DNA of 64,000 nt from Zygnema cylindricum (Eukaryota; Streptophyta; Zygnematophyceae; Zygnematales; Zygnemataceae). The translations under genes and the position numbers were made by a program. The notes below the pieces were generated by a model. That model did no database searches. It saw only the letters and a program-made list of their open reading frames with translations, and was not told where the DNA came from. Below, in pieces: positions 11,252 through 60,580 of the stretch (position 1 is the first letter of the stretch; each line of letters opens with the position of its first letter). The stretch is from NCBI GenBank assembly GCA_037447655.1, contig JBBHKE010002876.1, positions 122,489-186,488 of the forward strand, read 5' to 3'.

Positions 11252-11345
11252 TGTTGTGTATCACTAAAAAAATTATCGCGATAACACCGATACCGATAGT
11301 TATCGGTTATCGAACCCGTCAGAGGTCCCGATATATCGGTACTTT
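11252..11345. repeat. Partial copy of the TATCGG inverted-repeat element
   Basis: It starts with tgttgtgtatcact and continues gataacaccgataccgatag, then cagaggtcccgatatatcgg. The same sequence is found at 36731-36820 in the channel gene intron. Only the left end is present here. Confidence 0.7.
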
Positions 11346-11907: not shown

Positions 11908-12267
11908 TCAGTCGGAATTTCCACAAACTTTTCCCATATCGTTCTCCGCGGTCTTCACAGTCGCCGCTCCCGAGACTGTGGCAATAGGAGTGAGGGGTGT
12001 CTCCTTCCCTTTCCCCTTTTCAGACACACTGCTGTCCCCATCATCTGCCTCCTCCGCTGAGGCAGCCGTTGCTGCAGGAATCCTTACTCCTCCAAATCCT
12101 GGTGGAGTTCCCGAACGTGGACCTTTCACTTGTCCACTGACGATACCCCGGTATCGTTTTTCGCACAAAGCTCCCATCATCATGGCTTCCCAATAGATGA
12201 ACCCAGATCCATTGAAGGTGGGTACCCTAGAGGGTGGGCCCATAACCTGCAATTATGTGTCCTCCAT
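11908..12267 (-). pseudogene. Element III second copy: truncated gag N-terminus
   Basis: The minus frame from the ATG at 12265-12267 encodes a gag start closely matching 17263-18459 (MGPPSRVPTFNGSGFIYWEA). It stops after about 110 residues near 11930, where it diverges into unrelated sequence. It follows LTR type a in the same order as in the complete copy, so it is the truncated end of a tandem duplication rather than an independent insertion. Confidence 0.8.
12236..12247 (-). promoter_or_regulatory. Half-tRNA primer-binding site (element III, second copy)
   Basis: The plus strand gggcccataacc equals the initiator tRNA-Met anticodon-arm sequence. It lies 8 nt from the LTR end (TGTGTCC at 12256), inside the gag codons for Q-V-M-G-P. 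Confidence 0.75.
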
Positions 12268-15700: not shown

Positions 15701-15779
15701 TCATCTGGGTGAGATAGCTTAGTTACCTTATGAGCGACCTGTTTTTCTTGTATCCTTTTGCTGCTCCTCCTTCCTCCCT

Positions 15780-39280: not shown

Positions 39281-40094
39281 CTTGTTTCATTACTTATTTA
39301 TTTATTTATTTATTTTATTCTCTTTCTTTCACATTTTCTTGAACCAAGTTTGCGTGTGACTCCATTATATCGTATTCAGGTAGATATCCACCTCGCATAT
39401 GCCAATTTTGGTGATATACTTAAACAAGATTTAGTGCGTAATTATTGGCATAAATGAATAGTAGTATTTCCCTTTTATGGTTTAGATACTACTGTTCATT
39501 ATCTTGTTTGATAGAAGTAGTGTAACCCTTTTTTCTGCTTATAATTGTTTGAGGTTTTTACGAGGACAAAATCTTCCTTTTATACCAAATACTGTCGAGG
39601 TTAGAAACTGGGCGTAAAAGGAAAAGGTTAAGGGGTTTTATATGTTGTGGGCTTCCTGATTACTTTTGTTGTTACTTTTCCATCTCAGTTAGGGTTTGTT
39701 GAGACGCTAATGGGCTGGACACATAATTTATGTACTGGCTAATTTCAATGAGTACAGTGTAAATTCTGGTAAATTTCTTTGGTTATTATATTGTTTTTTT
39801 GCTTTTCAATTTTTTCCCTATGCTTTTCGCTTTTGCTTTTAGGTTTTGGCTTTTTGCCTTTTTCTTTTTGCCCAGCAGGTGAAATTGGAGTATTATTTTT
39901 GTTTTTTCTTGCCGCTTGCACTTGATTTAAGCTGTTATGTCTCTTAAAGAAATCTGGTCCAAGACCTTTGTGTGATTAATATGAAACAATTTGTCGTTTC
40001 TTAATTGGTCCATGACCTGAGTATGACTTGCATCTCCATTGATGGACCGTCTTTTGAACTCGCCCGATGAAAAGGTTTTTAAGATATGTGAGAC
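39281..40094. other. CNGC 3' region, no gene seen
   Basis: AT-rich sequence after the stop codon with a run of ttta units at 39294-39315. It probably holds the 3' UTR and polyadenylation region. No open frame of interest was seen on either strand. Confidence 0.5.
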
Positions 40095-40096
40095 AT

Positions 40097-40367
40097 TGTT
40101 GAGCGTGCCTGATCAACGTGAGGGAAGGGCCCACAGCCCGGAGTCGTCGGCATCGGAGTCCTGCAAATAACCCCCAAATGCGAATGCTTCCCAGAATGAT
40201 GATCATGCCCCCTGCTACCCACACCCCTCACATAGAGATGCAAGGATAGGGAATATGGTTGAGCACAGGGGGAAGGCGAAAGTTATCCTCTCCCCCTTTA
40301 TTCCCCCCCCCTCCCCCTGGCCGGGGAAAGGGATTTGGGTCTCGGTAATCAGGCTGATATCCCAATT
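40097..40367 (-). mobile_element. Extra partial copy of the gypsy LTR-adjacent sequence
   Basis: It aligns with 42769-43046 (gagcgtgcctgatcaacg to ggctgatatcccaattt) and sits directly outside the gypsy 3' LTR. The gypsy LTR is thus flanked on both sides by the same roughly 275-bp sequence in the same orientation. Confidence 0.7.
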
Positions 40368-40370
40368 TGT

Positions 40371-42765
40371 TGCTCCTACGAGAAGTCGATCGCACTTGTT
40401 CCCTCAAAACCCACTGTTCTGATCATAGGGGGTTTCAGTTTACTCCGTGCGGGTCACTCCGAAGCAAAGAGAACTCCAGATGAAGACACAAATGCACTAC
40501 CTCGTAGAAATATATATAGGTAATAGGATTGGCTTTCCTAATTCAACAATATCACCTTGTCCCAGAAAAGAGAATAAAAGAAAGAGAATGTGAAATATAG
40601 CGAAGCAAGCTTAATATACCCCAACAATAAACGACGACAGCGAAAGAAAGGCGATCCCTCTCCCGACAGTATCGTAAATAAGTATGGTGCTCCTTCAACC
40701 TCCGGGGTCCGCAGCTCGGAACCGGCTAGACTCTTCTCGGTTTCAAACAGCAAAAAGTCCAAAAATCACCCAAAAAGCAGATAGTGCCAACTACCCACCC
40801 GGACTGTGATTCCCACAAGAGACAGATCCAAAACCAAGATGGCAATAGAGTGAAACAAAACAAAGATTCTCCAAAAGAAGCTTTGTTGGATTTTATGAGA
40901 GTTTTCACAAGAGACAGTACTGAAAAGCAACCTGTCTCTTTCGACCCCAAGCGCCTTATACATCAAAGTTTATCAAATTGCAGGTCCAAAAGTCAAAGCT
41001 ATGCTGTTAACGAATGAGCGGCAAGCAAGTGTAATGGAACTGACGCAAGACAAAACAATCCGTACTACACTCGGGGGCAAAAAGTTCTGCTCCGGACTGC
41101 GGCTAGATCCGCGGCCGGAAGTAATTATTTGGTCCACTATTATGAGACAAAGTCCTGAAAAAGACACTAACTTGCCAAACTTTGACCTGACGTAATTAAT
41201 GGACCAAAGGTCAGCTGAGCCTGAACTAAATGAAATTCTATGGGCTCCATTGCCCACAGAATTCGCAGATCCAAAAGAAGCTAATCTAGATAGTGCCGAC
41301 TCCAAGTTGATATAAACCCAAATAAATGATCCCTTGATAATCAAAACCCCAATACAACTTCACCCCTGTGAAGATAAGACCTTGTGTGTGCTCAGTTCCA
41401 CCACAGAATGCAAAGCTTGAATATGTGTTTTGGACAGTATTCCCCACTTTGACTTTCCCACTGAATAAGTGCCACCCTGACACGCAAAAACCTCTGACCG
41501 ACTACACCCCTGTGTAGCCTAGAATCCCCTTAGTCAGCAGCAAAAAGAATTACTGAATTTGCTCACCCGAGCAGTAAGTTATGGCTGGTCAAAGATGACC
41601 TTTATAGTTACAAGCTCTCTTAGAGAGAGGTACCTAAATATCACTAAGTCTTGGTCTGCCTACTCACGACTACCTACTACTAAACCTTAGTCCAATAGGA
41701 ACACTATATAGTACAAGAAGATACAATGGGCGATGTACTTATTGTACGAGCATTGTACGACAAGGTCTACAAGGTGACACCTGTCAAATTGGAAGCCATG
41801 GTTACTCCCATCTTCTCTGGTATCAAATAATGTGGCGCCATGTGGCACCGCGTGACGCTATCTCTGTATGCCGCTAAAAGCTCACTTCGCGTGGCGGCTA
41901 TAATGCTGGCCGTCCGATCAAAACATATTTTACACGGTTCAGATTCGCGTATATGCAGGAATTGCTCCTTTTGGTTAGTCTGTTGTTAATTATGTATTCA
42001 TAAAACCAGTCATATGTATCGTTTCGATAACGCCTTATTGGTTAAGGCTTACCTCTAAAAATATAACCACAGACCATGGTTCAAAACTGGTCTACATCAG
42101 GTTTTGGTTATTTGTTAGTTTGTTAGAACTCTCTACTTCTACATTTATAAATACTTATTGTACCCCACATATGCCATCGTTGACTCTAAGCTATAGGTTA
42201 AAGCTAACGGCTATTAAGGATGATAGGTACTAGGATTAAATCCTGATTTTGGCAATCCTCTTTTGTTACAAACTACGAATCAGCCTATCCCCTTTAGACA
42301 GCCATGGCACTAGCACTCTCTTTGGTCTTCAATGACTGCAACAAGTATGGGGACCGGAGAGATTTGAGCAAGAAGCACGCTGCCTTTGTTGACTTACTCT
42401 ATTTATTTGTCCAATACAGACCTAGAAAATACATAAATTTCCAACACTAAATTCCTACTGACGACTAACAACATAATCTAGAAGCAAATCCGGAAAATTA
42501 CGTGGCTATCCACAATGTACCCCCCACAGGGGCTGGTGGAAATTGGTCCCATGTAACGGAATTGCTATCTTTGAGACGGTAGAACTTTGTCGCCCGGCTT
42601 CCGTTAGGCGTGTAATAAAGTGCGTTCCGCTCAGTTTAGGAAATACAAGGATCTCGTCCGACTTCGTGCACTCACCCCTCCGTACTCTGAAGACCATAGA
42701 GGATAAAAAGGGCCCGGAAATTCTTGGTGATATAAAGGTAGGCCTGAAAAGCATAGAGCTTGACA
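40371..42765 (-). mobile_element. Gypsy 3' LTR, interrupted by a solo copia LTR
   Basis: On the minus strand it begins TGTCAAGCTC at 42765 and ends GTAGGAGCA at 40371. It aligns closely with 59362-60538 once 41231-42447 and one ctaaa are removed (about 1173 vs 1177 bp). A purine-rich AAGAGGGGGGGAAA followed by TGGGATATC lies at 43046-43060, so the true LTR may begin about 280 bp further out; the 5' copy lacks that part. Confidence 0.75.
41231..42447 (-). mobile_element. Solo copia LTR, 1217 bp, TSD ctaaa
   Basis: On the minus strand it runs from TGTTGGAAATTTATG (42447) to GAATTTCA (41231). It is flanked by ctaaa at 41226-41230 and 42448-42452. The inner part (aaatccaaa-type gatctgc, cttggagtcggcac) shows it belongs to the element IV family. 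The paralogous gypsy LTR has a single uninterrupted ctaaa near 60223-60228, which is the empty site. A decayed B-box-like ggattaaatcc lies near 42236. Confidence 0.92.
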
Positions 42766-43098
42766 GCTGTCGAGCGTGCCTGATCAACGTGAGCGAACGG
42801 CCCACAACCCAGAGTTGTCAGCATCGGAGTCCTACAAATAACCCCCAAATGCGAATGCTTCCCAGAATGATGATCATGCCCACTGCTACACACACCCCTC
42901 ACATAGATATGCATGCAAAATAGGGGAGATGCTTGGACAGGGAATATGGTTGAGCACAAGGGGAAGGCGAAAACAATCCTCTCCCCCTTTATTACTCTTG
43001 GCTGGGGAAAAGGATTTGGGTCTCGGTAATCAGGCTGATATCCCAATTTCCCCCCCTCTTAGTCAACAGTGACTAAGATATAAAAACAATTACCCGCT
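42766..43098 (-). other. Gypsy sequence between pol and 3' LTR
   Basis: It is non-coding, with a short perfect inverted repeat cttagtca/tgactaag (about 43058-43077, loop acag) next to a C-run (minus-strand polypurine AAGAGGGGGGGAAA). The junction with the LTR is palindromic (cttgacagctgtcgag). Confidence 0.55.
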
Positions 43099-43323
43099 CT
43101 ATTCCCAGTTTGGACAAAACCAGGTGTTGGAGGGTAGAGGGTGTGGCTCCCAAGAGGAGGGGAGACAGGCTGAATTCCAACACTGACCGCATTGATTGCA
43201 CACCAATATGTCGTGTAGCTGAGAGGACTGAGGGCAAACTGATGAGCAGGAAGGAGGATCAGCAAAGTAAGTTAAGTGGAAAGTGGGTTTGTCTTCCAAT
43301 CCCCGAAGATGGCAAGGGGCCAC
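43099..43323 (-). pseudogene. Gypsy pol C-terminus: degenerate PHD-finger-like zinc motif
   Basis: Downstream of the integrase C-terminal fold (LILKVVQVSNKGVLTLEGKD and VAPCHL) the minus frame reads SCSSVC, then ILVCNQCGQCWNSACL, then NTWFCPNW and a stop (43099-43101). The spacing C-x2-C-x7-C, a hydrophobic stretch and W-F-C-P fits the second half of a C4HC3 PHD finger. The usual His is Asn and the last Cys is Trp. In PHD proteins the domain reads histone H3 tails; here it could have guided integration, as chromodomains do in chromoviruses. The fold assignment is from spacing only. Confidence 0.5.
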
Positions 43324-43446
43324 ATTGATCTAATTCTCTTTAATTCGTCGACCATCCTTTCCCTCCAATGTAAGAACCCCTTTGTTGGAGACTTGAACCA
43401 CTTTCAAAATTAGTCTCCCGGCAGAAATATCCATCGTGTCCTTCTT

Positions 43447-44581
43447 CTATTGCATCTGATAGACAAAGTCCCCCGGCATAAATCGTCGCTGCGGGGAACA
43501 TAATTCTCGCTCCGGCGTTGAGAATACCACAACTGATCTCGGTGTCGAGCCGCCTGCAAATTCCCCATGGCGAGTGGCATCTCGGTGAAATATCTTGGCT
43601 CTATCAGCGATCAGTTTTTCGACTGTCCCCTTAGCATCCATCTCCGAAGGACCATCGCTTGGGCCGATGCCGCCCTGGGCAAGATGGGATGCCGTCCAAA
43701 TAGAATGAAATAAGGGTTATTGGAGTTGAGAGAAGCTTGCCTGCTGAATCTATAACCCATAGCTATCCAAGGCACTTTTCGGTCCCACTCCCCCAAATCT
43801 TCCTCAACTGCATATTTTTGTAGTGACCGCTTCACTGTCTACACGCACCTTTCGGCCAAACCGTGGACTTGAGGGTGGTCACGGCTGGTCAGCCGATGGT
43901 CGACTAGGCATTTTTTCAAGAGGTTGGAAAATTCTCCGGCAAATTCGGAGCCTTGGTCGGTTAGGACTTCCGCAGGCGCCCGAATTGGGCTAAAACCCTC
44001 TGCAAAAAGGCATCTGCAATTGCTTTGGACTCCTTTAAGGGCAAAACCACCAACTCGATCCATTTGGAACAATGTTCTATCATGACCAGCACGAAGGCGT
44101 TCTCACGCCTTCTGGTCGGAAGAGGTCCCAAAAGATCGAACGACCACCGATAAAACATCCCCCGGATAGGAAGCGAATGAAGCTCACTCACGCCTTTTCT
44201 GTCAAAAGCTGATTTGACTCGATCGCACGAGGAGCATGTCTGCACAATTCGGTTAACTTGGGTCCGCAACCCATGCCACCAATAAGAGCCAACAACCACG
44301 GAATTGGTCCGTTTTTGCCTGAAGTGTCCACATTGCCGATGGAGATTGGAAATGAGAGCTTTTCGGTCAGAGGGGGGAGGAACCACTTTCCTCGTGCCGT
44401 CTAACCATTTCCAAAGGAGAACGCCTCTGTCCCAATCATACGCAGCCATCCGGGTTTGTATTCGAGATAATTGATTTCCTGTCAAGTGGGGAAGAGGCGA
44501 CCCTTGCTGGATAGATTGGAGAGGATCGTGGTTGTTCCAGATGTCCTTCAGTCCGGCCCCTATGGGCGCCTGCCCCTCCAC
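43447..44581 (-). pseudogene. Gypsy integrase, broken
   Basis: The minus frames show the zinc-binding segment (HRQCGHF, then CSSCDRVKSAF), the core DLLGP (first Asp), then LTDQGSEFAGEF (second Asp, after a frameshift near 43965) and HGLAERCV-stop-TVKRSL (Glu followed by a nonsense codon at about 43836-43838). IMPYRFSRQ-like and PYFILFGRHPILP complete the core, and PGDFVYQMQ begins the C-terminal part. The D-D-E triad is recognisable but spread over three frames. Confidence 0.85.
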
Positions 44582-44644
44582 GTCGGCCGAGAAAGTTGAC
44601 GGTTCCCCCCCAGATTGGGGAAGCCAGATGAAAGCGGAGGATGC

Positions 44645-45037
44645 TCAAATGAGCCCCAAACTGATCTCCGGGTCCTCATCATGTCGAGCCCCTGTAGAAT
44701 CCAAGGTGGAGGGATCAGGATTCCGGCTAAGTCCGTTGGTATTCCCGTGTATTTCCCTTGCCCTATGAACAATGTCGAAATCATATTCTTGCATGATAAG
44801 AACCCATCTGGCTAGTTTGCATGATAACTTACTATTCTCCATGATCCATTTCAGGGGTTGGTGATCCGTAATCAAGGTGAAATGGACTCCGTACAAATAA
44901 GGCCGAAAATGCTGAATGGCCCAAACCGCTGCGAGTAACTCTCCGTGGTAACTGCTGTAATTCCCTTCTACTCTGTTGTTGCTCCGGCTGGCGTATGCCA
45001 CCACATATTCAGCTCCACCATCACCGACTTCAGCCAA
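44645..45037 (-). pseudogene. Gypsy RNase H
   Basis: The open minus frame of 130 codons includes YVVAYASRSNNRVEGNYSSY, HGELLAAVWAIQHFRPYLYG, FTLITDHQPLKWIME and IVHRAREIHGNTNGLSRNP, the standard Ty3/gypsy RNase H order. The domain itself is uninterrupted, but it is separated from RT by stops. Confidence 0.87.
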
Positions 45038-45229
45038 AACTGCTCCTTATCCAAACCTGCTCCTATCGGTATAAAGGAGGAAAAGCCTCTGGTGATCAAG
45101 CATACGGAGCACGGGGTGCTCCTTCAGAGCATCCTTCAAAAACTGGAAGGATATCTGTTGTTCTTCGGCCCACTGCCACTCTTGGTCCTTCTGCAATAGC
45201 TGGTTAAGGTGCTGAGCGTGACTACTGAT

Positions 45230-46320
45230 TTAGGGGTTGAGCGTGACTACTGAACTCGGGGGATAACCCGCCGATAGTAGTTGGCCAAACCCAGAAAGGT
45301 GCGAAGGGCCGAGATGTCCTGCGGTGGGGAATGAGCGTCAAGGGCTGCCACCTTGACCATGTGGGGACCCACAGTCTCGAGAGTCACCTCATGTCCAAGG
45401 TAGATAGTCTTTTGTACTCCAAAAATACCTTTGCCCGGGTGACATTTAAAGCCCCCTGCTTGGAGTGCCCTGAGAACAATATGGACATGCTCCAGGTGTT
45501 CCTAAAAAGTCTTTGAGAATATAATAACATCATCAATATAACATTGGGCACAATCAATTCCTCGGAGCGCTTCGTCCATTGCCCGTTGGAATTTGGCCGG
45601 TGCATTTTTGAGCCCAAATGGCAAATAAATTCATTCATAAAGTCTTAAACCGGCCCAAAACGCGGCTCTCTCCCGGTGCTTCGGTTCCATGACAATCTGG
45701 TGGAAACCATTCTTCATGTCCAAAGTGGAGTAGATAGTGGCACCAGTAAGGGAGTCAAATATCACTTCTAGGGTAAGCATCGGATACCGGTCAGAGATGG
45801 TGGCCGTGTTGAGCATACAATAATCTCCACACATCCGGAAATCTACAGTCTTCTCGGAAGAGTCCTTCTTGGGAGGGAGAACTATCGAGAAGCGAGCCCA
45901 TGAAGTCCTGTACTTTCTTGAACCAAACTGGCTTCCACCAAAGTTTGGACTTTAGCTGTTATGAATTAATTTTCCTTGAAGCTGAGAGGATATTGCTTTT
46001 GCCAAACAGTAGCCATCTCGTCGATCAAATCAATTTGGAAAAGTGTACCTTTGTAAATACCGACATATGATTCTGACCATGAGAACACCTGCCTGTTTTC
46101 GGCCAATAGTTCAAAGAGCCGCTCCTTTTGCTGAGGATCCAACTGCTCCCCTAGTGTCCAATCCACTTTCCCAGGCTCTACAGCAGCCCCAGCCTCCGGC
46201 GGTCTACCCCAGAGGTTAATGTCGAATTCCAATCCTACCGGTGGATCTGCCTCTACTCCTCCGGCTAGAACGCTACTGCTGACAACTCCCGCTAAGCTGT
46301 CGCCATCTGAGTCGGCGCCT
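45230..46320 (-). pseudogene. Gypsy reverse transcriptase, broken
   Basis: The minus frames give the N-terminal segment (LDPQQKERLFELLAENRQVFSW, about 46080-46150). MCGDYCMLNTATISDRYPML and STLDMKNGFHQIVM follow (45650-45830). In a shifted frame come CYIDDVIIFSKT (catalytic YIDD, about 45519-45550), HPGKGIFGVQKTIYLGH and LRTFLGLANYYRR (about 45260-45310). A stop after SKTF (about 45510) and frameshifts near 45640 and 45965 disable it. The N-terminal part is fused in frame context to the upstream methyltransferase region. Confidence 0.87.
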
Positions 46321-46411: not shown

Positions 46412-47581
46412 CTAACAATTGAGGAGCTTGAAGGTTAATAGCCTTAGATTCCTTAGACCGGAAAAGGCGAGTGCATGCTTGAGTACCCATGTGATTGAAT
46501 TCAGATCCATACTCTGCCCAATTAGGCTGCACCTTTGAAAGTATGAAATACCTAGTGCTGTCGTGGTGCCTTTTTTAAATCCCATTTCTTCTTCCCGTTC
46601 TGCAATCGTTGGTGATTTCCAAATCCCCGCATTCCTATCAAAGATCATTCCCGCTGCTCTTTTTCAATAAGCGTGACTGTTAGGGAAAGAAACCAAAGTC
46701 GGGAGTGCTCTTCGTGGTAATCCCGGTTGGTTCCACCGAAATAAAGGAGAGCGGTATGGTCTCATCACAAGGGTGGCCATTCTGCCTTCCCCAAGTATTT
46801 GCTGCACCAAATTCCGCGGGTCGGGAATTTGTGTGTCCAACAGTTGTTGGAGTACTGGAAGCCGAATCATATTGGTCTAATATGCCCTTACTCTGTGTGC
46901 ACGGGATCCCATCTGTGCGGCGTCAAAAACCAAGGGAGCTCCTAAAATTCGGGTTACATGATTTCAGCTGTCTGCAACCTGTTTCCTTTCATCATCTCCT
47001 AGGTGGACATTTTCCAGAACGTACCCCACCGGTGTGTCTTGGAGCTGTTGAAGCCACGTGATTAATTCGATCATCCGGTAAAATGTTCCACTTCTGCGGT
47101 CTTGATGCCCTTTTCCTTGTCCCGTTAGGGACAATCCCTAACAAGGCCAACCTGCCAACACCAAATGCACTCTTCCCAAACTGGCTAGATGGGTCGCAGT
47201 GATGTTTTCTACATTTTCGGGAAGACTTCGGTGTGTTTTGGAAAAAGGGGTCACCGGTAGCTGTTGAGGATATAGGTGATGAAGTTGATGGAGGCGATGT
47301 TCTTTGATAGCTCCTGCCTCAGGTGATATTTCCACGGCTGCGTATGACTCCACCAGGTATCCTGTTTTCAAAACCGCTTCCAAATCGGAACTAATTCCCG
47401 AAAATAGAGATAAAATACGCAGTCCCGAATCGGGGACTGCCAATGACACCACTTGTCTATTGAACTCCTCGTTAGCGGACTTGAGATTGGAAGCATTAGA
47501 CAGTGGTGTAGAAACGACAACCTTCAATGTTAAGGCCGAAAATGCCGTATCCACTCCCCGTCGGAGTTTTGCTACCTGCAA
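46412..47581 (-). pseudogene. C5 cytosine DNA methyltransferase domain inside the gypsy polyprotein
   Basis: This enzyme family transfers methyl from S-adenosylmethionine to C5 of cytosine in DNA. The minus frame shows motif I (GLRILSLFSGI, about 47380-47420), motif IV with the Pro-Cys catalytic pair (LVLAGWPC, 47141-47164), motif VI (YVLENV, about 47010-47030), motif VIII (AAQMGSRAHRVRAY, 46880-46920), motif IX (REEEMGFKKGTTTAL, about 46545-46600) and motif X (LIGQSMDLNSITW). The order is canonical, not the permuted order of plant DRM enzymes, and the style is DNMT3-like. In-frame stops lie at 47138-47140, 46964-46966, 46877-46879 and 46664-46666, and a frameshift near 46520 leads to RT. It lies between protease and RT, so it was part of pol. 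It is inactive here. Confidence 0.88.
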
Positions 47582-47591
47582 TAATCTATTC

Positions 47592-47879
47592 TTATATTCC
47601 TCTTCCCACCGCTTGGAAATTGGGAATTGCTAGATTTATCTTGCAATATCGGTAGAACTGCCAAACAGTTTCGTAGGAGATGATGTAGTGCACACCGGGT
47701 AGCAACCAGACACCGAGACATTTGTCTTCCCTCAGTTCCATAAATCCAAAGGAACCACCACTTTGGTTCTTTCCGGATTTCTTGGGTCCCGAACAGTACA
47801 TTGTTCCTTCCACACGCTCAAACTTATATTGAGTCGGGTCTAAGTGGCCATTCCCAACAGAATTTCGAATTGAGTCCAT
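47592..47879 (-). pseudogene. Gypsy polyprotein linker upstream of the methyltransferase
   Basis: The open minus frame of 95 codons includes LDPTQYKFERVEGTMYCSG and WLLPGVHYIISYETVWQFY. I do not recognise a domain. It precedes the methyltransferase by a frameshift or stop only and was probably translated with it. Confidence 0.5.
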
Positions 47880-47887
47880 TCCACCAC

Positions 47888-48125
47888 CAAGAAGGCCTTC
47901 CTCTTTCCTCTTCCTTCCCTTTTCCTCTTCCTTCGTCTATCATATTCCTTCGTCTTTCCTCTTCCTTCGTCTTTCCTCTTCCTTCCTCTTTCCTCTTCCT
48001 TCCTCTTTCCTCTTCCTTCTCTATCCTATTCCTTCGTCTTTCCTCTTCCTTCGTCTTTCCTCTTCCTTCCTCTTTCTTGTTTCTTCCTCTTTCCTCTTCC
48101 TTCGTCTTTCCTCTTCCTTCGCATC
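47888..48125. repeat. Pyrimidine microsatellite (ttcctctttcctc-type) in the gypsy element
   Basis: About twenty imperfect units of cttcgtctttcctcttcc / cttcctctttcctcttcc. On the plus strand it yields a spurious Ser/Leu/Phe-rich open frame. It separates the protease from the methyltransferase linker. Confidence 0.92.
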
Positions 48126-48690
48126 CTTCTCCCCATTTCGCCTCTCGTTACCACAAATACAAACCATTCACTCACACGCTAATTTTGTGTCAAAACTGCT
48201 GAGGCAAATAGCAAAAGCCTGAAAAGCAGAAAGTGGGTATCGATAATCCATCGTAAACATATCTTTCCCAATCTTTCCGAACTGCAACCCATACCCACAA
48301 AATAAAAAATACAAAAAACAATCGTCACTTACAAATTTTTTCTCAAGCACCACCAGAAAATATAAACAAGTCGTCTGTTACAATCGAAACAAAAACTGGG
48401 TAATGCTTAAAAACTCTCTCCTTAAAGCGTCCGCCTCAATCTAAAAAATAACCCCGAATGCACCGTTCAACAGAATAACCAGAAAGGACGAAACAAAATA
48501 TAAAAAAACATACCAGATTGCCATAGAGAAGTAAAAACTTGCAAAACCTGTAAAAGCACTTTCTCCAGAACATCCGAACAGCAGAAAAATGGGACAATAA
48601 TGAATTGAAAACAGCAAAAACATGCACCGCAATCACAAAAGAATATAAAATAAATTTAATGAATTGAAAATAAAATCTGTGAATCAGCTG
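48126..48690. other. Gypsy interval with no recognised domain
   Basis: AT-richer sequence between the microsatellite and the protease. The short open frames on the minus strand (for example 48436-48636) are Phe/Leu-rich with no recognised motif. It may be a later insertion or a degenerate linker. Confidence 0.4.
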
Positions 48691-48699
48691 TTACCTGCA

Positions 48700-49484
48700 G
48701 AAGCACTTTTTCAGGAACCGTTGGCCTCTGTCATCAGAAAACTCGATTTCCATGGCTTTGATTATTCCATGGACTGGTTGACTACCGCTCCGGTGCTTAA
48801 GCAGATATTGCTGGGGCGGATTTCGGGTCGGAGTTCCTCGGGCATTTTCTACAAAACGGAGGTGGTGATAAGATTGGGGAGCGCCCCGGTGTAGACTACA
48901 GCGTCTTGGTATCCCCCGTACCCGTTGAGTTTGAAGTTTCCCATTCGGTTCAGTATAAGAGCCACTGATAAGGCTTTGTATTCCTTATCCACTATAGGTG
49001 TTTTCGGATTTGTGGAAAAAAAGACTGCAGTTGGCGTTGTGGCTCTGTCGACCCTTCATTTTCCAGAGTAGATTTCTTCTCCCAATGCCTGAATGAGGAT
49101 TTCTTCGGGCAGGTTGTGGGAGGATGCAAGGGTCTTCACGTTTGTGAGGGCATATGGCATGAGGTGCCGGACTAGCATGACTGCCGATTTTGGAGGAAGG
49201 AAGAGTTGCTTTCGGTGAAGATGGGGATGAGTTCGGTCGCTGCAGATCCTGATCTTCTCCTTCTTTCTCACTCTCGGAGTTGGAATCTGCCACTGGAGGT
49301 GTTTGGGGAGTGTTATTCTCTGGGCGTTTTGCCATGTATTTCTCAAACCAGTCTTGGGTGTCCTTCTTTTCTCTTTCCAGTGACTCTTTCTCTCGCTGTT
49401 GTTTCTCGTTCTGGTAATTTTCAAAACCGGGAGGCAATTTAGGTTTTGAAGGAAGAGATGGCGGGTGATTCGGTTTGATTCCAA
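48700..49484 (-). pseudogene. Gypsy protease region and pol N-terminus
   Basis: The minus frames carry a charged Glu/Lys-rich segment (49437-49200), then SLFFHKSENTYSG, GGYQDAVVYTGALPNLITTSVL split by a stop, and EIEFSDDRGQRF. The D-T-G-A aspartic protease active site is recognisable as Y-T-G-A, so the catalytic Asp is lost. Frameshifts lie near 49080 and 48985. Confidence 0.6.
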
Positions 49485-49505
49485 GGCCGATGTCGCTGTT
49501 TATAA

Positions 49506-51406
49506 TTACTGCTCAAGGAGTAAATGACAAAGGCCTTGTAGCTTTCCGATTAAGATCCCTCTAACCCATTTTTTGCCTATCTTGTCTTTACATTGAGGTG
49601 GAATTGCAGAGTTGTCGGCGGTTGTCTCCCACCCCCACATTCCAAGCTCTGGACAGGAAGGTTTGGGCATGGTGGGCAATTGGGGGTTCCAAATCCCAAC
49701 CCAAAAAGTCTTCATCGTTGGCACCCGCTGATCCTTGAAGCTCAAGCTCCGCGAGCTTCTATAACAACTCTTGTTTTTGCTTTTGGAGTCGTTGGGCAGC
49801 GGTGAGAGGAGCAGGCCGGGAAGAAGGTCCAGAAGGAGGGCAGCCAACTCGGCAGCCATTGCGGCCAGCTGCTGACGCTGCTGCTGTATGATGATTTTAG
49901 GCGTAAGCTTGGCTAGAGCAGGTGGGGTTTGCTCAGGTCTCTCCTGCGTGGACATGAGTTGGCGCTCCCAAGGATAAAGAAGTTGGAGTGGGAGAGGGTT
50001 AACGATTGTTTCTCCTTCTTCAGTAAACAAAACATATTGCATCATTTCCTTAGGTACCTTATTTTTCAGAAAACATTGCCCTTCTTTGTGCCCCAGAAAT
50101 CCACAAGCCTCGCACTTGGCGCCCTTGGTGGTATATTGACTCCATATCTCGTTGGATATTTGAGCGACATCAAACTTTGAAAATTTGATTTGCCGCAATT
50201 GAGATTGGAACATCTTAGAGGTTTCGCTCCGTGGAGTTAGACGGTAAGTTTCCTTTGTTACCGGGGTCTTGTCCTCTCCCCTCCCTCCCTTCAATTTTTC
50301 TTGTTGTTTCAAGGTTCTTTCTGCACGTTCTTTCTCCCATTCCTTTAGCTTCAAGGCCAGCTCCAGTTTTAGTTTTCGGTTGCAGTGCTTCCACCTATGA
50401 CCGGGTTGTTGACAATTCATGCAATTAAAGAGAAACACTCGCTCATCTGCTCCCATAGCTGGTTTTGACCCGCTCTCAACTATTGGCTTCCCCTTAAGCT
50501 TCGGCAAAGCTTGAATTTCCGCCTGTTCCTCCTCACTCAAGGAAGTCTCCCCGGCAAATCCTGCAAAATTTGCGCGGCCCTTGCCGGTCACGCCTTCTCC
50601 CTTGCCTCACTGTGGACAAAGTGATCGTACAATTTCATCGCCACCACCGAGATGTCTTTGGCGGAGGGATTAATGTCATGAATCGCTTTCCCATCAATCC
50701 AATTATCCAGAGCCGTTTGCCTTGTTGGCCCGAAGGAATTACAGACGACTATGAAGTATTTTGTGGCCATCGCCGGAAGATCAATTGTGGACAACTTTGT
50801 CTTATGGCGAAGGTTAGAGAGTAGGTTAAAGAGGGTCTGCGAAGTCTCGTTCTTCAAACAGTGGAATTTCGTGAATTCCTTAATTGCAGACTCGTTCCTC
50901 TCGGTGTAAAGGAGTCTCCAGATGTTAAGCAGATTCGTACAAGGGTTGGGATTGGCAACCATGCGCGTTGCTGCCTAGGCTGCCTGACTTGCTTGCAGCT
51001 GGTTAACATAGGCACCCCCCTGTGCCTGTAGTTTTATGTCCTGGGTGTAGGTAGCAGTCACAAGGATTGCAGCCGCAACGGCCAAGTTAGCCTCTACTTG
51101 TAACACAACATCATCAAGGGCAGAATCCAAGATTTTGATGCTAAGGGCCATCAAAAGAGGTTGACGCTCTTTGTAATCCGCCAACGCCCCTCAAAGGTAG
51201 TTGACCATCATAGGGAAGAGGGTTGTTCCAAAGTCATCCGGAATGACTCCTCCCTTGTACTTATTGATCTCAAATTGGGTGAAGGATTTCCACAACAATT
51301 CAAAATCTGAAAATGCGATCCCCGAGCTATCTCCCGTAAAGATCCCGATGTCCCCCATTTTCTTTTCTTCCTCTGCAGGATTGGAGAAATGGAAAGAGGA
51401 AGGCAC
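49506..51406 (-). pseudogene. Gypsy gag: capsid-like and double zinc-knuckle nucleocapsid
   Basis: The minus frames cover a capsid-like part (50588-51406; NIWRLLYTERNESAIKEFTK, LFNLLSNLRHKTKL) and a 361-codon frame (49506-50591). The latter carries two CCHC knuckles, CMNCQQPGHRWKHC (about 50383-50424) and CEACGFLGHKEGQC (about 50078-50119), both with intact C-x2-C-x4-H-x4-C spacing. Stops occur near 50963, 51187 and 50590. Confidence 0.8.
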
Positions 51407-51650
51407 CGTAGGACTGACAAACTGAGCGGGCGAGATGACTCTGTGTCTCCTCCCTCGAGAACGAAACCGTCTCCTCCTCCAGTAGGAGGTATTGCCCTGG
51501 AAGGTAAGGATCTCCCTCCCAAAGAGGAAGTACTTGCGATTGGAAAGATGGTTGGAGGAAGGATGTTCCCCACTACTCCTTTATATCCAGGAGAGTGTTG
51601 TTCTTCCTTGAGAACTTGCTCCACCGATGGGATGTGTAGGCGAGGTCGGT

Positions 51651-53412
51651 TCAAAGGAGGTCCTTGGGAAATGGGTGGTGGCGGAAAAAGGGACGACTGT
51701 TTGTTGTGAGGAGATGATGTATGTCTCCTGAATGGTGTCTTTCTCCATGGTCGTCTTTAGCATGGTGTCTTTCTCCATGGTCGTCTTCAGCAGGACTCTG
51801 GAGGAGGAGTTCCATAACTGAAGGATTATATAGCGCCGGTGAGGTGGTGAGTATAGGTTGTGTTTGTAGGGTAAAACAAGAGGATCCGGTGACCCACGGA
51901 CCGCCGCAGCGGGAGAAAAGGTGAAAAGGGAGAGGAGGCGTGAACGTTCGGGGCTCTGTTGTAGGACCCGGGAGGTGAAAAGATAGAGGGGAAGAAGATG
52001 GGAGATCAGGGGATTTTCCGAGAGCTGGTGAAGCGGGTGTTGACGGCCTCAAAGGAATGTGAATCCTCTCGTCTGGTTGTAACTCCACCAAAGCCTCCAA
52101 GGTGCAAGCAACCTCCACCGATACAAAGGTAGGCTTTTCCCGGGGAAGAGATGCAAACTCAGGTTGTAAATGTGCACCCATAACCTTCAAGTTAGGTTCA
52201 ATGTTTCCCCCCCCTTCCTGCTGAAGAGGAGGCTCTCGGCTAGTATCCGAGGTAGGGACCTGTAGCTGGGGACGTGCAAGAGGAGAAGTCCCCGGAGCCA
52301 GCGCTTCAAGATGCGACTCGGTTCTTGATGTAGGAGGAATCTGCCCGCTGAGAATCCCACTAGATCTACGCCCATCTTCCCTAATAAGTTTCCGTTCCTG
52401 TTCCTATTGTTTTCGCCTTTCTGCCTCTAAGGCTTCCCAATCTATCGTTACGGGTCTGGCCCCCGCCGTAGCCTTGCCTTGAGACTTGAGAACTTCCACT
52501 AGTTCCTTGGCCTTTTCGACTACTGTTGTAAGATCCGCTATCTCCATCCTCGAAATCTCGGGATTGTCAAGTCGAGTCCGCCACCTTCCCTCGGACAAAT
52601 CCTCTTGGCCCGTACCCGGAACCTCTGGATCAGTGGGTTTGGATCGCCAAAGCCCTTTGGTAGGGCGGACACGAGTTACGGTAGGAAAAGGTTTCTCGGT
52701 TGAGGAGGACAAAGGAGTTGGGGACGTCTCCTCTTTCGGAAGAGGTGAGAATCTCCCCTTATTGTCGTTGTGGTCAAACCTCTTTCCCCTCAAAGTATCT
52801 CGAGTTTCCCTCTCGCTAACCCTTTCTCCTCTACGAGGCCTCAAGGAGGTGCGCCACCGGGAAGGTCTGCTGGCTGCGGTTTCCTGAGAGGAAGAGGGAG
52901 GAGGGCGAGATTAGGGAACTCTCTGTGACCGGTCCGGCACCGACTGTGAAAAGTTGCTATCCGAAAAACTGCTCAAAATCTCAACCACCCCTCCCAAGGG
53001 TCTAACCACCCTGACTCGATCTGTCCGAGCCAATTTTTGCACCAACTCCTTCTTCACCTTCAGCTCATGGGGGTCATGAAGGGCAAGGAGTTCCTTACGA
53101 CTTGGGCGACGTGGATCCGTCAAAACCGCGGGGTCTATTTGAATCTCTGCCCCGGGAATCTTGGATCTGGTGTGAAGCCGACCTCCAAAAGAGGACCCAA
53201 ATGGGGTTCCCTCTTTGGCCGAGCCTTGGGAGACACTCGGTTCCTTTCTTGGGATTGAGCCCGGGCTTCTTTCCTTTCCTCAGAAAAGGTTTTAGCGGCC
53301 TCCGCCAAGGAAGGGTAATGTTCGGGAGTCAAACTTGGAGGAGGAGGAGGAGGAGAAGAAGCACCAGCTGGTTCCTTCATCGGAGAATAAATGACAGCCT
53401 CCAGGGGTGAAG
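51651..53412 (-). pseudogene. Gypsy gag N-terminal region, copy next to the capsid (includes repeat copy 1)
   Basis: The minus frames are Pro/Ser/Glu-rich: KEPAGASSPPPPPPSLTPEH (53320-53380), LTTVVEKAKELVEVLKSQGK (coiled-coil-like, near 52480-52550), KVMGAHLQPEFASLP and a DDHGERHHAKDDHGERHH direct repeat near 51740-51780. The part 52014-53412 is duplicated at 57749-59146. The N-terminal half of a gypsy gag is expected here, but no family domain is recognised. Confidence 0.7.
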
Positions 53413-53593
53413 ACTATTTGAGTATTTTCTAGGTCTTTATAGAAAAAGAGCAAAGGCAGTCTGTCCCTAACTCCCTTCTCCAAGCCCCCACACTTGTTGT
53501 AGTCACTGAAGGCTTAATAGGGAGCTAGAGCCATGGCTGCCTAAAGCTCACTAGAGAAGACATGGGATGGATTAGATATATTTACTAAAAGTT

Positions 53594-53640
53594 AATTGAC
53601 AGACCCAGGAATTGATCCTGGTACATGCCGTCCGTCAATT
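53594..53640 (-). other. 47-bp T-arm-like hairpin, element IV 5' LTR
   Basis: On the minus strand AATTGACG and its partner TGTCAATT form the outer stem, enclosing CCAGG/CCTGG with a 7-nt loop ATCAATT. GGATCAATTCC fits the B-box. An A-box-like GGTTAGAGCTAACG lies just upstream. An identical copy is at 56758-56804. Confidence 0.72.
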
Positions 53641-53949
53641 TCCATCAGACGTTAGCTCTAACCGTTAGGCATTGGACACATATTACGATATATTGGATTT
53701 GATAAATATATAAATCGTTACATGTAGATTAATTCGTTTAACGGCGAATAGATACCTAGTGCATAAATACAGTTTGATGTAGTACGCCGTACGGTATGGG
53801 GACAGAACGGACACCGCGCATTGCTTTCAATAGCGAAACAAATACCGCGCGTCAAATTTCAGCGGCTACGATTATAGCCGGTTTTGATCGGACGGCCACG
53901 ATAGGCGCCGCGATCACGGAAAAGGTACTTTTGGCGTTTTACGGTATTT

Positions 53950-53971
53950 GCCACGTCAGATGACACGTGGC
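53950..53971. promoter_or_regulatory. Conserved inverted ACGT motif pair in the LTR
   Basis: gccacgtca and tgacacgtggc lie 2 bp apart in opposite orientation, forming a near palindrome that contains a G-box core (CACGTG). Related pairs occur in the LTRs at 26099-26120, 57116-57136 and, with wider spacing, near 13532-13562. Such motifs bind bZIP/bHLH factors in plants, so stress-responsive transcription is a reasonable guess. Confidence 0.5.
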
Positions 53972-54564
53972 GTGATAAAATTGGATTACGGGAATTCCGG
54001 AGATTACATGAACTAATCCTGATTTGACACGTGTCAACATTTTGGCCATGTCGTACAATGGCTGTACAAAAAGTACACCGGCACCTGTACTTTTTTGTAC
54101 GATACAGTAATTTGATTGGTGCCGTACTTTAGTAGATAAAGTTTTAGAGAGGGAATAGGACTTAGAAAATTTTGGGTAGGTAGCTGCCTCTCCTAGAGAG
54201 CACCTTGTATAAAATGGCAAAATTTGGCCAGCCATAACTATCAATTTACTTGACCATTTTCAGTGATTCTTTTTGCTGTGGACTCAGGGGAGTCGAAGCT
54301 ACACACTTGTGTAGTCGGTCAAAGTTTTTGTCTGCCAAGGTAGCGGTATTTCTAAGGAAAAGTCAAAGTGGGTGATTGTGTCCAAATCTCATATTCTAAC
54401 TTTGCATTCTGTGGTGGAACTGAGCACACAGAAAGTGTTATTTCACAGGGGTGAATCTATATTGGGGTTCTGACTGTCAAGGGGTCAGTCATTTGGGTTT
54501 ATATCAACTTGGAGTCGGTACAATCTAGATTAGCTTCTTTTGGATCTGCATACTTTGAGGGCCA

Positions 54565-56508
54565 ATGGAGGTCTCAGAGTTTTAGGTTTTGGGCCCACCA
54601 TCTAGGGTGCCTATGTTTGATAGAACAGGCTTCACTTATTGGGCGTTTACAATGGAGGGATTGCTTTTCGAGAAGCACTTATAGGGAATTGTTGCGCGAC
54701 AAGTGAGATGTCCGCCATCTGGATTTGGAGGAGCTTACTATGGAGAATCATCTGATGCTGCCCAGAATATCATCCGGAGTTTAGATGCAACGGAAGGTGA
54801 AGGGAAAAACCTTTCCGTGGATGGGGAAATAGGGGAGAAGGAAAAGGGGACACCTATGGTGAGGGGAGCTAGGCTCTCAGCTATGGTACCACATGTAGGG
54901 ATTAAAACTGAAGAAAATGACAGAAAAATATGGGAATACAAAAACACTATAGCAAAACATCTCATACTTAGATATGTGTCTAAGTCGATAGCTATCACTC
55001 TTTTAAGTCTAACCAAGTCTTCAGAGATATGGGAAGCACTAAGTCAGATTTATAAGAGTGAGACTATTCAGAGGGAGCAATTAGTAAAACAGGAAATTGA
55101 GGCCTATGTTTATAAAGGCGGTAGCATGATAGAGTTTTGCAATGATATTGCTGCGTTATATGTTGAGCTAGCTAGTGCGGGATATGTAGAATCTGAGGAG
55201 AGTAAGATTAATACACTACTTATGAAACTCCCAGATGAGTACGAAAACATCATTTGTCGTATGCAGGCACCTGATGGTTCCTCATGGACTTGGAGCTTTA
55301 CCATGGGGATAATTCTTATGAGGGAAAGCACTTTGGAGCTTCGTAGGGGAAGTGACAGGGTGAATGCATTTACAGCTGGTGGTGATTGGCGGAAGCGTGA
55401 TGAGAGGAACGGCGGTGATTGGCGGAAGCGTGATGAGAGGAACGGTGGTGACGAGCGGAAGCGTGATAAGAGGAAGAAAGACAAAGGTAAACCTTATCGG
55501 AACTTTGGTGGAAAAAGAGGGAGAGGAAAAGACACGGGAGTTTTGAAAAAAGGGGTTTGCTTCTTTTGTGGGGAACCGGGTCATTATATGGAGGAATGCC
55601 CTTGTTTGGAAAAACTTAGAAGTTGGAATGTGGATGAGGAGGATGAAGAGGAAGAGGAGAAAGAGGATGAAGAAAAATTGGAGCTTCTTCACATCGGTAG
55701 AATGGGGAAGAGAGAAAAGTACACAGAAAATGCACGAAGGCAACAATGTGCTTTTGGAGGTATAAGGGAAGTAAAGAGAGAGGAGGTAGTTGAGGATGTC
55801 GAGGAGTGTAGAGTGTATGACTTAGAAATGAGAAAGTTAGTTATAGGATCCATAAGTGAAAACGGGAAAGATAAAATTAATCAGGATAATTTTATAGATA
55901 ATAGGGAAACACAAAACTGGTCGGAAAGGGAGACTTCAACGGATTCCGAGGAAAGGGGAGAAGTGAAACTCGAAGAGGTTTTAAAGGATAGGGGAGAAGA
56001 GAAATATTTGATTAAAGGTTTAGGGGAGAAGAAATATTTATTGGGAATTAAATTAGAAAGTGATAGTGGAAAGAATTCCATGGGAGAGAGTGAGGGAAGT
56101 TCAGAAAATGGGGTAATTATCATGGATAAAAATATGAGTACGGAAGATGTAGATCTTATGAGGAGCTTAGTGGGGACTAGTGTTTTTTGGGAATATTTGG
56201 GGGTGGATGGATTTGACATCACTACTTGGTGTGATGTCGCTTGTGAAGATGTGCCTGTAAAAGGGTTATCATCCGGGTATGTGTTGCAGGTTGGGGATGG
56301 GGCTGACTGTTGGAAATGCAAAGGGGAAAGTAGATTCTGGTTGGATGAAAAGGGGAGGAGGTGGATAAAATCTTTGATCAGATTTGTGATAAGTAAGGTG
56401 CTAAATGAAATGTGTGATGCAATTATTATTTCAGTTCATCTAATGCATTGTTTTAAATACAAGAGTATTTTTCTTAAGTTTTATAAAAAGAAAAGAAAAA
56501 GGAAATAG
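54565..56508 (+). CDS. Element IV: gag fused to RT/RNase H remnants, long open frame
   Basis: The gag frame starts at the ATG 54565 inside the LTR and meets TAG at 54583 (Gln in relatives) and TAG near 54682 (Trp in relatives). It is then open for about 600 codons to 56508. It shows the UBN2 gag core (LMKLPDEYENIICRM), a tandem GGDWRKRDERN repeat, a CCHC knuckle CFFCGEPGHYMEEC and an acidic stretch. Short pieces aligning to the end of copia RT (KKYLLGIKLESD) and RNase H (DITTWCDVACED, SGYVLQVGDGADCWKCK) follow. Protease, integrase and RT catalysis are gone. It is a gag-only, non-autonomous element that needs a partner to move. Confidence 0.75.
54585..54599 (+). promoter_or_regulatory. Half-tRNA primer-binding site of element IV
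   Basis: GGTTTTGGGCCCACC follows the LTR end directly. It is complementary, with one mismatch (T for A), to the initiator tRNA-Met anticodon arm. It overlaps the gag codons V-L-G-P after the ATG at 54565-54567. Confidence 0.75.
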
Positions 56509-56574
56509 GGGAAGGAGTGTTTGTTTATTTGTTTGTAAGAGTTGAAAGGAAGTAGACTAGAAAATAAGGGGAGT

Positions 56575-57748
56575 GTTGATATTTAGTATTTTCTAGGTCT
56601 TTATAGAAAAAGAGCAAAGGCAGTCTGTCCTTGACTCCCTTCTCCAAGACGCCACACTTGTTGTAGTCACTGAAGGCTTGATAGGGAGCTAGAGCCATGG
56701 CTGCCTAAAGCTCACTAGAGAAGACATGGGGTGGATTAGATATATTTACTAAAAGTTAATTGACAGACCCAGGAATTGATCCTGGTACATGCCGTCCGTC
56801 AATTTCCATCAGACGTTAGCTCTAACCGTTAGGCATTGGACTCATATTACGATATATTGGATTTGATAAATATATAAATCGTTACATGTAGATTAATTCG
56901 TTTAACGGCGAATAGATACCTAGTGCATAAATACAGTTTGATGTAGTACGCCGTACGGTATGGGGACAGAACGGACACCGCGCATTGCTTTCAATAGCGA
57001 AACAAATACCGCGCGTCAAATTTCAGCGGCTACGATTATAGCCGGTTTTGATCGGACGGCCACGATAGGCGCCGCGATCACGGAAAAGGTACTTTTGGCG
57101 TTTTACGGTCTTTGACACGTCAGATGACACGTGGCGTGATAAAATTGGATTACGGGAATTCTCGAGATTACAGGAACTAATCCTGATTTGACACGTGTCG
57201 ACATTTTGGCCATGTCGTACAATGGCCGTACAGAAAGTACAACGGCACCTGTACTTTTCTGTACGATACAGTAATTTGATTGGTGCCGTACTTCAGTAGA
57301 TAGAGTTTTAGAGCGGGAATAGGACTTAAAAAATTTTGGGTAGGTAGCTGCCTCTCCCAGAGAGCACCTTGTATAAAATGGCAAACTTTGGTCAGCCATA
57401 ACTATCAGTTTACTTGACCATTTTCAGTGATTCTTTTTGCTGCGAACTCAAGGGAGTCCAGGCTAAACACGGGTGTAGTTGGTCAGAGTTTTTGTCTGCC
57501 AAGGTGGCGGTATTTCTAAGGAAAAGTCAAAGTGGGTGAATGTGTCCAAATCTCATATTCTAACTTTGCATTCTGTGGTGGAACTGAGCACACAGAAAGT
57601 GTTATTTCACAGGGGTGAATCTATATTGGGGTTTTGACTGTCAAGGGGTCAGTCATTTGGGTTTATATCAACTTGGAGTCGGCACTATCTAGATTACTTT
57701 CTTTTGGATCTGCATACTTTGAGGGCCAATGGAGGTCTCAGATTTTCA
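56575..57748 (+). mobile_element. Element IV, 3' LTR (1174 bp)
   Basis: It follows the polypurine tract agaaaataaggggag, starts tgttgatatttag and ends gattttca at 57748. It differs from the 5' LTR at few positions, which points to a recent insertion. It contains the 47-bp hairpin at 56758-56804. Confidence 0.9.
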
Positions 57749-59146
57749 TTTCCGAGAGCTAGTGAAGGGTGTGTTGACGGCCTCAAAGGAATGTGAATCC
57801 TCTCGTCTGATTGTAACACCACCATAGCCTTCAAGGTGCAAGCAACCTCCACCGATATAAAGGTAGTTTTTTCGGGGAAGAGACACAAACTCAGGTTGTA
57901 AATGTGCACCCATAACCTTCAGGTTAGGTTCAATGTTTCCCCCCCCTCCCCGCTTGAGAGGAGGCTCTCGGCTGGTATCCGAGGTAGGGACCTTTAGCTG
58001 GGGACGTGCAAGAGGAGAAGTCCCCGGAGCCAGCGCTTCAAGATGCGACTCGGTTCTTGATGTAGGAGGAATCTGCCCGCTGAGAATCCCACTAGATCTA
58101 CGCCCATCTTCCCTAATAAGTTTCCGTTCCTGTTCCTATTGTTTTCGCCTTTCTGCCTCTAAGGCTTCCCAATCTATCGTTACGGGTCTGGCCCCCGCCG
58201 TAGCCTTGCCTTGAGACTTGAGAACTTCCACTAGTTCCTTGGCCTTTTCGACTACTGTTGTAAGATCCGCTATCTCCATCCTCGAAATCTCGGGATTGTC
58301 AAGTCGAGTCCGCCACCTTCCCTCGGAGAAATCCTCTTGGCCCGTACTCGGAACCTCTGGATCAGTGGGTTTGGATCGCCAAAGCCCTTTGGTAGGGCGG
58401 ACACGAGTTGCGGTAGGAAAAGGTCTCTTGGTTGAGGGGGACACAGGAGTTGGGGACGTCTCCTCTTTGGGAAGAGGTGCGAATCTCCCCTTGTTGTCGT
58501 TGTGGTCAAACCTCTTTCCCCTCAAAGTATCTCGAGCTTCCCTCTCGCTAACCCTTTCTCCTCTACGAGGCCTCAAAGAGGTGCGCCACCGAGAAGGTCT
58601 GCTGGCTGCGGTTTCTTGAGAGGAAAAGGGAGGAGGGCGAGAATAGGGAACTCTCTTGACCGGTCTGGCACCGATTGTGAAAAGTTGCTATCCGAAAAAC
58701 TGCTCAAAATCTCAACCACCCCTCCCACGGGTCTAACCACCCTGACTCGATCTGTCCGAGCCACTTTTTGCACCAACTCCTTCTTCACCTTCAGCTCATG
58801 GAGGTCATGAAGGGCAAGGAGTTCCTTACGACTTGGGCGACGTGGATCCGTCAAAACCGCGGGGTCTATTTGAATCTCTGCCCCGGGAATCTTGGATCTG
58901 GTGTGAAGCCGACCTCCAAAAGAGGACCCAAATGGGGTTCCCTCTTTGGCCGAGCCTTGGGAGACACTCGGTTCCTTTCTTGGGATTGAGCCCGGGCTTC
59001 TTTCCTTTCCTCAGAAAAGGTTTTAGCGGCCTCCGCCAAGGAAGGGTAATGTTCGGGAGTCAAACTTGGAGGAGGAGGAGGAGGAGAAGAAGCACCAGCT
59101 GGTTCCTTCATCGGAGAATAAAGACAGACTCAAGGGGTGAAGACTC
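57749..59146 (-). repeat. 1.4-kb direct repeat, copy 2 (gypsy gag N-terminal region)
   Basis: It aligns with 52014-53412 in the same orientation with few differences. Copy 1 ends exactly where the element IV 5' LTR begins, and copy 2 starts exactly after the 3' LTR (tttccgagagct). The coding frames are as in copy 1: KEPAGASSPPPPPPSLTPEH at 59050-59111 is the probable start of gyspy gag, and LTTVVEKAKELVEVLKSQGK is near 58212-58270. Confidence 0.88.
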
Positions 59147-60538: not shown

Positions 60539-60580
60539 ACATTCATGTATGACAACAAACATTCATGTATGACAACAATA

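Follow-up and report, generated by a model that had tools for sequence, protein, structure and literature searches.

A Gypsy-type retrotransposon family of Zygnema cylindricum with a DNMT3-related methyltransferase domain in its Pol region

Cytosine methylation is a main host weapon against transposons, and a methyltransferase that is carried by a transposon and kept under selection challenges a simple arms-race picture. Whether a Ty3/Gypsy retrotransposon of the streptophyte alga Zygnema cylindricum carries such an enzyme is the question raised by a stretch of 64,000 nucleotides (contig JBBHKE010002876.1, positions 122,489 to 186,488; hereafter the window, numbered from its first letter). A sequence-only reading had placed a C5 cytosine DNA methyltransferase (DNMT) on the minus strand of the window at 46412-47581, between the protease and reverse transcriptase (RT) of a retrotransposon. 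We confirm that minus-strand 47629-46415 encodes a DNMT3-related C5 methyltransferase between protease and RT, and find that the DNMT is a regular component of this retrotransposon lineage.

The region comprises 405 codons in a single frame, with four in-frame stops and no internal frameshift. Its location agrees with the earlier placement; its start does not, since the frame begins at 47629, about 50 bases further out than 47581. Translated by read-through, with an X at each stop, it matched the Pfam profile DNA_methylase (PF00145) with E = 4.8e-6 and 26.7 bits (cut-off 22). The profile search that the sequence-only reading had named as a way to disprove it thus returned a C5 methylase. Against PDB, the read-through translation gave human DNMT3A as its first match (1e-7). 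A protein search with the N-terminal piece alone (47138-47629) gave no match, and the X-marked read-through was needed. The motifs stand in the unrearranged order that had been predicted: I (LSLFSGI), IV (WPC, then a stop), VI (ENV), VIII (SRAHRVRAY) and an X-like GQSMD, under the usual numbering. The Cys of motif IV, the Glu of motif VI and the Arg of motif VIII have established roles in C5 methyltransferases. Among solved DNMT1, DNMT2, DNMT3, DRM and bacterial enzymes, DNMT3 was closest to the element-borne domain in both profile and fold, with M.MpeI, HhaI and DNMT1 trailing it only modestly in fold score. Pro-Cys-Asn in motif IV is typical of DNMT3, and the motif here reads PCQ or ECQ instead; we therefore use the label DNMT3-related.

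The surroundings bear out the predicted position, with a protease region upstream and RT, RNase H and integrase downstream, colinear with sister copies L010 and L012 (L, C and P numbers denote loci, contigs and database proteins, respectively). The element spans 60538-40097 on the minus strand, has the termini TGTC...ACA, and is flanked at both ends by the same 4 bp, ATGT, by eye a target duplication. This copy is dead and cannot make the full DNMT protein. Its reading frame also changes, relative to L010 and L012, within gag, within RT and within integrase. In the broken window copy, RVT_1 (0.00041) and rve (0.0011) score under the Pfam cut-offs, which the frames of sisters L009, L010 and L012 exceed for both domains. 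The protease motif, degenerate here, is an intact DTGA in L012. An insertion of ∼0.8 kb between protease and DNMT is private to the window, being absent from the closest sister, L018, as well as from L010 and L012.

Sister copies were sought in the alga's own assembly (352.8 Mb, 2689 contigs), and the copy counts from the PF00145 and window-DNMT searches are lower bounds. PF00145 gave at least 123 scored matches from 782 candidates. The window DNMT gave at least 103 of 1948, which share 59-86% identity with it, its own locus set apart; 19 of the 104 rows were free of stops, some of them partial. Merged, the two lists comprise 195 places. At least one of these, L007 on contig C514, is likely a host exon, with an open stretch that has non-open sequence on both sides and that we take to resemble the catalytic domain of plant chromomethylases. 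Such an exon suits a streptophyte host, as do the Closterium relatives described below, although chromomethylase-like enzymes are described in Chlorella too (PMC9861306). Two diverged DNMT lineages, at high copy number, are present in the genome.

Linkage was read from both sides. The earlier reading had proposed a genome search for the protease-methyltransferase-RT order. Starting from the DNMT, 36 of 37 loci have RT downstream and 33 have a protease open reading frame (ORF) upstream, with the window locus counted. Starting from RT, a listed DNMT lies within 4 kb upstream in 54 of 104 places; eight of the 50 others were examined, and all eight hold at least part of a DNMT, one of them beside an assembly gap. 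The agreement of the two sides (36/37 and 8/8) makes the DNMT a regular part of the lineage. In L009, L010 and L012, DNMT, RT, RNase H and integrase all score above Pfam cut-offs in one open frame, and the same frame of L009 also shows matches below cut-off to a zinc knuckle and to an aspartyl protease.

The DNMT is under purifying selection in the stop-free copies. At least 85% of the domain is covered by one match in 41 loci, of which 15 are stop-free (14 distinct after removal of a duplicate); because the 41 were drawn from the best or most open matches, this fraction is not a genome estimate. Median dN/dS was 0.176 (range 0.109-0.433) over 26 of the 91 pairs among the 14 copies, those with dS of 0.02-1.5, the pairs sharing sequences. 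For the second lineage, two usable pairs gave 0.25. The motif IV Cys is kept in 13 of the 14 copies, the motif VI Glu in 13 and the motif VIII Arg in all 14; first-lineage copies considered alone keep Cys in 9/10, ENV or ENI in 9/10 and AHR.R in 10/10. Among 108 database relatives retrieved, 61 have P before the motif IV Cys and 10 have E, the residue being unreadable in the other 37. The E-type relatives (P0027, P0036, P0038, P0039, P0042, P0051, P0066, P0081, P0089 and P0102) include four from Closterium, and P0027 is the sister of the second lineage in a tree of which we used the inner grouping alone, the DNMT3A and DNMT1-like rows sitting on long branches. WECQG was considered as the mark of one lineage and ruled out, as E-type proteins are spread over several branches. 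Since they do not form one branch, the Pro-to-Glu change is either old or repeated.

The ends of the element are unusual for Ty3/Gypsy. Self-comparison gives, along the minus strand, the repeat order A1, internal region, B1, A2, B2, and the reading of A1/A2 as ordinary long terminal repeats (LTRs) was dropped once B1/B2 had been found. The alignment of the window's A1 with its A2 spans 1181 columns and shows 30 differences, of which 22 are transitions. The same order recurs in C1344, a fresh copy in which A1/A2 are 100% identical over 931 bp and B1/B2 99.6% over 243 bp, with TTGG at both flanks. The split repeats are whole in these two copies and partial in L011 (B1/B2), L014 and L015 (A1/A2) and L016 (A1, B1); the 5' portion of C1374 also shows a match to the window A repeat. 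At the B1/A2 junction, the palindrome GACA-GC-TGTC was matched exactly in the window and five other loci, in each case 190-290 bases downstream of a purine run; the five are not all independent, L013 and the C1344 pieces (L009, L051) being near-identical. The exact palindrome is missing in 54 of 59 loci. Most of these 54 do not reach that region, but L048 and L050, which are among them, lie downstream of Pol.

Class assignment is accordingly mixed. RT, RNase H and integrase occur in the Ty3/Gypsy order in L009, L010, L012 and the window, and the arrangement A1-internal-B1-A2-B2 takes the place of two ordinary LTRs in the window and C1344; the family is therefore Gypsy by its Pol alone. Split direct repeats, known from tyrosine-recombinase elements, are shared with DIRS-like elements, which are not known to make a target duplication. 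Here, Pol contains an rve plus H2C2 integrase, 4-bp target duplications flank the two copies read, and Phage_integrase was not listed for any of the six ORFs scanned.

Two further features recur. Of the 35 copies readable at the boundary of protease ORF and DNMT (39 loci tried), 34 have a TAG there and 33 have CAATTC directly after it, the window included in both counts; the second-lineage copy L009 has no stop at this boundary. At its other end, Pol finishes in a PHD finger, whose score is 44.4 bits for L051 and 26.1 for a piece of L010 (cut-off 24). A PHD finger is reported on one family of Ginger1 transposases (PMC2836005), and a PHD protein expansion of at least 9-fold is reported for Zygnema cf. 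cylindricum SAG 698-1a (PMC9915684).

The window element is a decayed copy of a Gypsy-type family whose Pol combines, in this order, DNMT3-related, RT, RNase H, integrase and PHD domains. On balance, we lean towards a family that uses TAG readthrough, methylation of its own DNA, PHD targeting and an integrase that cuts the junction; these four activities are what we infer. In the window lineage, ribosomes would read through the TAG at a low rate, so that the output of DNMT would keep a constant ratio to that of RT and integrase, and the enzyme would enter the particle. There it would methylate freshly made double-stranded DNA of the element, either ahead of integration or during it, and the new copy would thereby have a host-like methylation pattern from the outset. 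Steering of the integrase to particular chromatin would fall to the PHD finger. The integrase may also cut the internal GACA-GC-TGTC junction, with loss of GC, to yield the split repeats. More tentative, and in our view doubtful as a complete package, is the proposition that a single Pol unites a DNMT3-related writer and a PHD reader, UAG readthrough, methylation of cDNA ahead of integration and a DDE-type integrase that produces split repeats by cutting the palindrome without a tyrosine recombinase, some branches having Trp-Glu-Cys. The TAG site, PHD finger and split-repeat junction offer handles on the timing and location of the enzyme and on integration of the element.

Several observations weigh against this favoured reading. 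The type I readthrough motif of plant viruses is UAG CARYYA (PMC5382211), and UAG CAAUUC agrees at five of six positions, failing at the last letter of CARYYA. RNA folding after the TAG in five copies gave no consistent structure (z from -3.1 to +1.3). CAA and TTC rank with the most constant codons of the domain but are not alone in this: of 43 conserved two-fold positions, 7 never vary (one of them TTC), and CAA is kept in 33/34. The PHD score falls under the cut-off in L048 (21.8) and in the whole L010 ORF (21.5), and no split repeats were seen in the pieces from C544 and C1374. As to the enzyme, L020, a stop-free first-lineage copy, lacks the motif IV Cys, and all four stop-free second-lineage copies (L009, L011, L013, L016) read WECQG rather than WPCQG, the motif IV proline being gone. 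The DNMT of a Klebsormidium nitens element produced no methylation in yeast, a result its authors call inconclusive (PMC5890265).

Under one alternative, which we judge unlikely, the DNMT acts on host chromatin, at the target region or on competing elements, either alone or within a complex for integration that the PHD finger guides. The presence of that finger on the same polyprotein and the abundance of the family in the genome would suit this idea, but expression at the level of Pol would bring the enzyme together with the cDNA inside the particle, and K. nitens, which bears such elements, has a plant-like methylome (PMC5890265). Equally improbable to us is that the domain has turned to another role, such as RNA methylation, or binding of DNA or S-adenosylmethionine as a structural part of RT/integrase. 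This would be most likely for the WECQG copies, given the replacement of the motif IV proline by Glu in the second lineage (4/4) and in 10 of 71 readable database relatives, with dN/dS still 0.25 in the two usable pairs; against it stand the retained Cys of the WEC copies themselves and the conserved active-site letters of the first lineage. That a host methyltransferase pseudogene fell by chance into one retrotransposon copy, the refutation that the sequence-only reading had itself proposed, might be suggested by the four stops but is refuted by linkage from both sides and by sister copies that hold a DNMT under purifying selection, 59-86% identical, at the same protease-RT position, and its probability is negligible.

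Table 1. Features of the element in the window (coordinates in window numbering)
Feature	Position	Strand	Basis or remark
Target-site duplication, 3' side	40093..40096	.	4 bp, ATGT on minus strand, by eye
Target-site duplication, 5' side	60539..60542	.	4 bp, matches other end
Split direct repeat A1 at 5' end of element, starting with TGTC	59362..60538	-	Self-comparison
5' gag region, one copy of 1.4-kb duplication	57749..59145	-	97% to 52015-53415; matches L010/L012 upstream of gag
Nested LTR element, 1168-bp LTRs (96%), Copia-like gag ORF (by eye)	53415..57746	.	Absent from colinear L010, L012
Gag region, broken, two CCHC-like knuckles (∼50420, ∼50110, by eye)	49460..53415	-	
First part of protease region (DTGA motif at ∼48890 degenerate)	48718..49238	-	tblastx to L010/L012
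Private insertion, AT-rich plus purine simple repeat	47894..48717	.	Absent from L018, L010, L012
C-terminal part of protease ORF	47633..47893	-	Comparison with sisters
Conserved TAG stop, CAATTC next, between protease ORF and DNMT	47630..47632	-	Sister-copy comparison
DNMT3-related C5-cytosine methyltransferase region, 4 in-frame stops	46415..47629	-	PF00145, PDB DNMT3A, sister copies
Pre-RT region and reverse transcriptase	45259..46247	-	RVT_1 0.00041; sisters
RNase H	44645..45235	-	PF17917 7.6e-28
Integrase, H2C2 zinc finger and rve core	43258..44644	-	PF17921 6.7e-13, rve 0.0011 (under cut-off); colinear with L010
Degenerate PHD finger after integrase	43090..43245	-	Aligned to L010 PHD stretch; by eye in window copy
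Polypurine tract directly before B1	43050..43062	-	
Split direct repeat B1	42768..43049	-	Self-comparison
Palindrome GACAGCTGTC at B1/A2 junction	42762..42771	.	1 in window versus 0.04 expected; junction common to 5 other loci
Split direct repeat A2, interrupted by ∼1.2-kb insertion ∼41232-42445	40371..42765	-	
Split direct repeat B2, 3' end, ends ACA	40097..40368	-	82% to B1 with indels

On either side of the nested LTR element, the 5' gag region of its host element is present as a direct repeat of 1.4 kb (97%; 52015-59145). Such a length far exceeds any usual target duplication, and the region is single in L010 and L012. Part of the A2 insertion (41228-41789) is ∼75% similar, inverted, to the nested-element LTR. 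Transitions between repeat copies, pooled over five comparisons covering A1/A2, B1/B2, the nested LTRs and the 1.4-kb duplication, show an excess in CHG context (30/88, versus 322/1915 C sites), with CG not enriched (16/88 versus 344/1915); for A1/A2 alone, 9 of 22 transitions are in CHG context versus 96 of 534 C sites. This bias hints at CHG methylation of the window's elements. Elsewhere in the window, 684-18444 contains, by eye, several Copia-like ORFs (gag knuckle, integrase and RT fragments) along with tandem or nested repeats, and an ORF at 37576-38178 has, also by eye, a cyclic-nucleotide-channel-like stretch and is probably a host-gene exon.

In the literature text consulted, we met no earlier mention of TAG-CAATTC, the PHD finger at the Pol end, a GACA-GC-TGTC junction within the split repeats of a DDE-type integrase element, or Trp-Glu-Cys copies. 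Titles and abstracts among the matches listed, a search with subscription papers, figures and supplements outside it, gave no further DNMT-bearing Gypsy elements and no PHD finger with such an integrase. The examined text of PMC5890265 mentions neither the TAG site nor the PHD finger, 4-bp target duplication or GACA-GC-TGTC junction, and 'PHD' and 'split direct' do not occur in its main text. Scans of viral_contigs (37 pattern matches) and genome_contigs (18) confirmed no viral or prokaryotic relative, with two short peptide patterns per scan that distant kin could escape. One related DNMT, P0012, is filed under a bacterial metagenome-assembled genome (Obscuribacterales) whose longest contig is 2410 bases; it is possibly a misbinned fragment of a eukaryotic retrotransposon.

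Other retrotransposons have taken up domains of related kinds. Chromoviruses are Ty3/Gypsy elements with a chromodomain on the integrase, and hence likewise place a chromatin reader at the integrase C-terminus; the Zygnema element has a PHD finger there instead, plus a DNMT. An arthropod retrotransposon family has reportedly captured a methyl-CpG-binding domain, again methylation-related, but a reader and not a writer. The Zygnema family is of the same kind as the published DNMT3-bearing retrotransposons. The K. nitens genome is ∼100 Mb, whereas that of Zygnema is 352.8 Mb and holds two divergent DNMT lineages. KnitGypsy-Dnmt3 of K. nitens, as described in the text of de Mendoza et al. 2018 (PMC5890265), has Gypsy domains, a DNMT3 in Pol with unrearranged motifs, Ka/Ks <0.2 and DIRS-like repeats, and the Zygnema family resembles it in each, its Gypsy Pol ORF likewise holding a DNMT3-type domain that purifying selection maintains. 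The kinship with charophyte retrotransposon DNMTs suspected from the sequence thus fits in the architecture described. SymbioDIRS-Dnmt3 of Symbiodinium also has a DNMT3 in Pol and A/B repeats, but it has a tyrosine recombinase (PMC5890265) where the Zygnema element has an rve-type integrase and 4-bp target duplications. A 2025 survey describes DNMT3s embedded in streptophyte and dinoflagellate retrotransposons and, in the text available, names LTR Copia and DIRS families (PMC12344493), whereas the Zygnema Pol is Gypsy-type; Zygnema may be among the species surveyed. Related DNMTs occur in Closterium sp. NIES-53/54 (P0039, P0042, P0066 and P0081, each an 'unnamed protein product'), P0081 also having an RT domain, but these show 36-39% identity to the first query, form a separate tree branch and carry WECQG in motif IV. 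The published account, in the text examined, covers one charophyte alga (PMC5890265); the same kind of element is now found in a second genome, where it is abundant and split into two diverged lineages, and Closterium has relatives of it.
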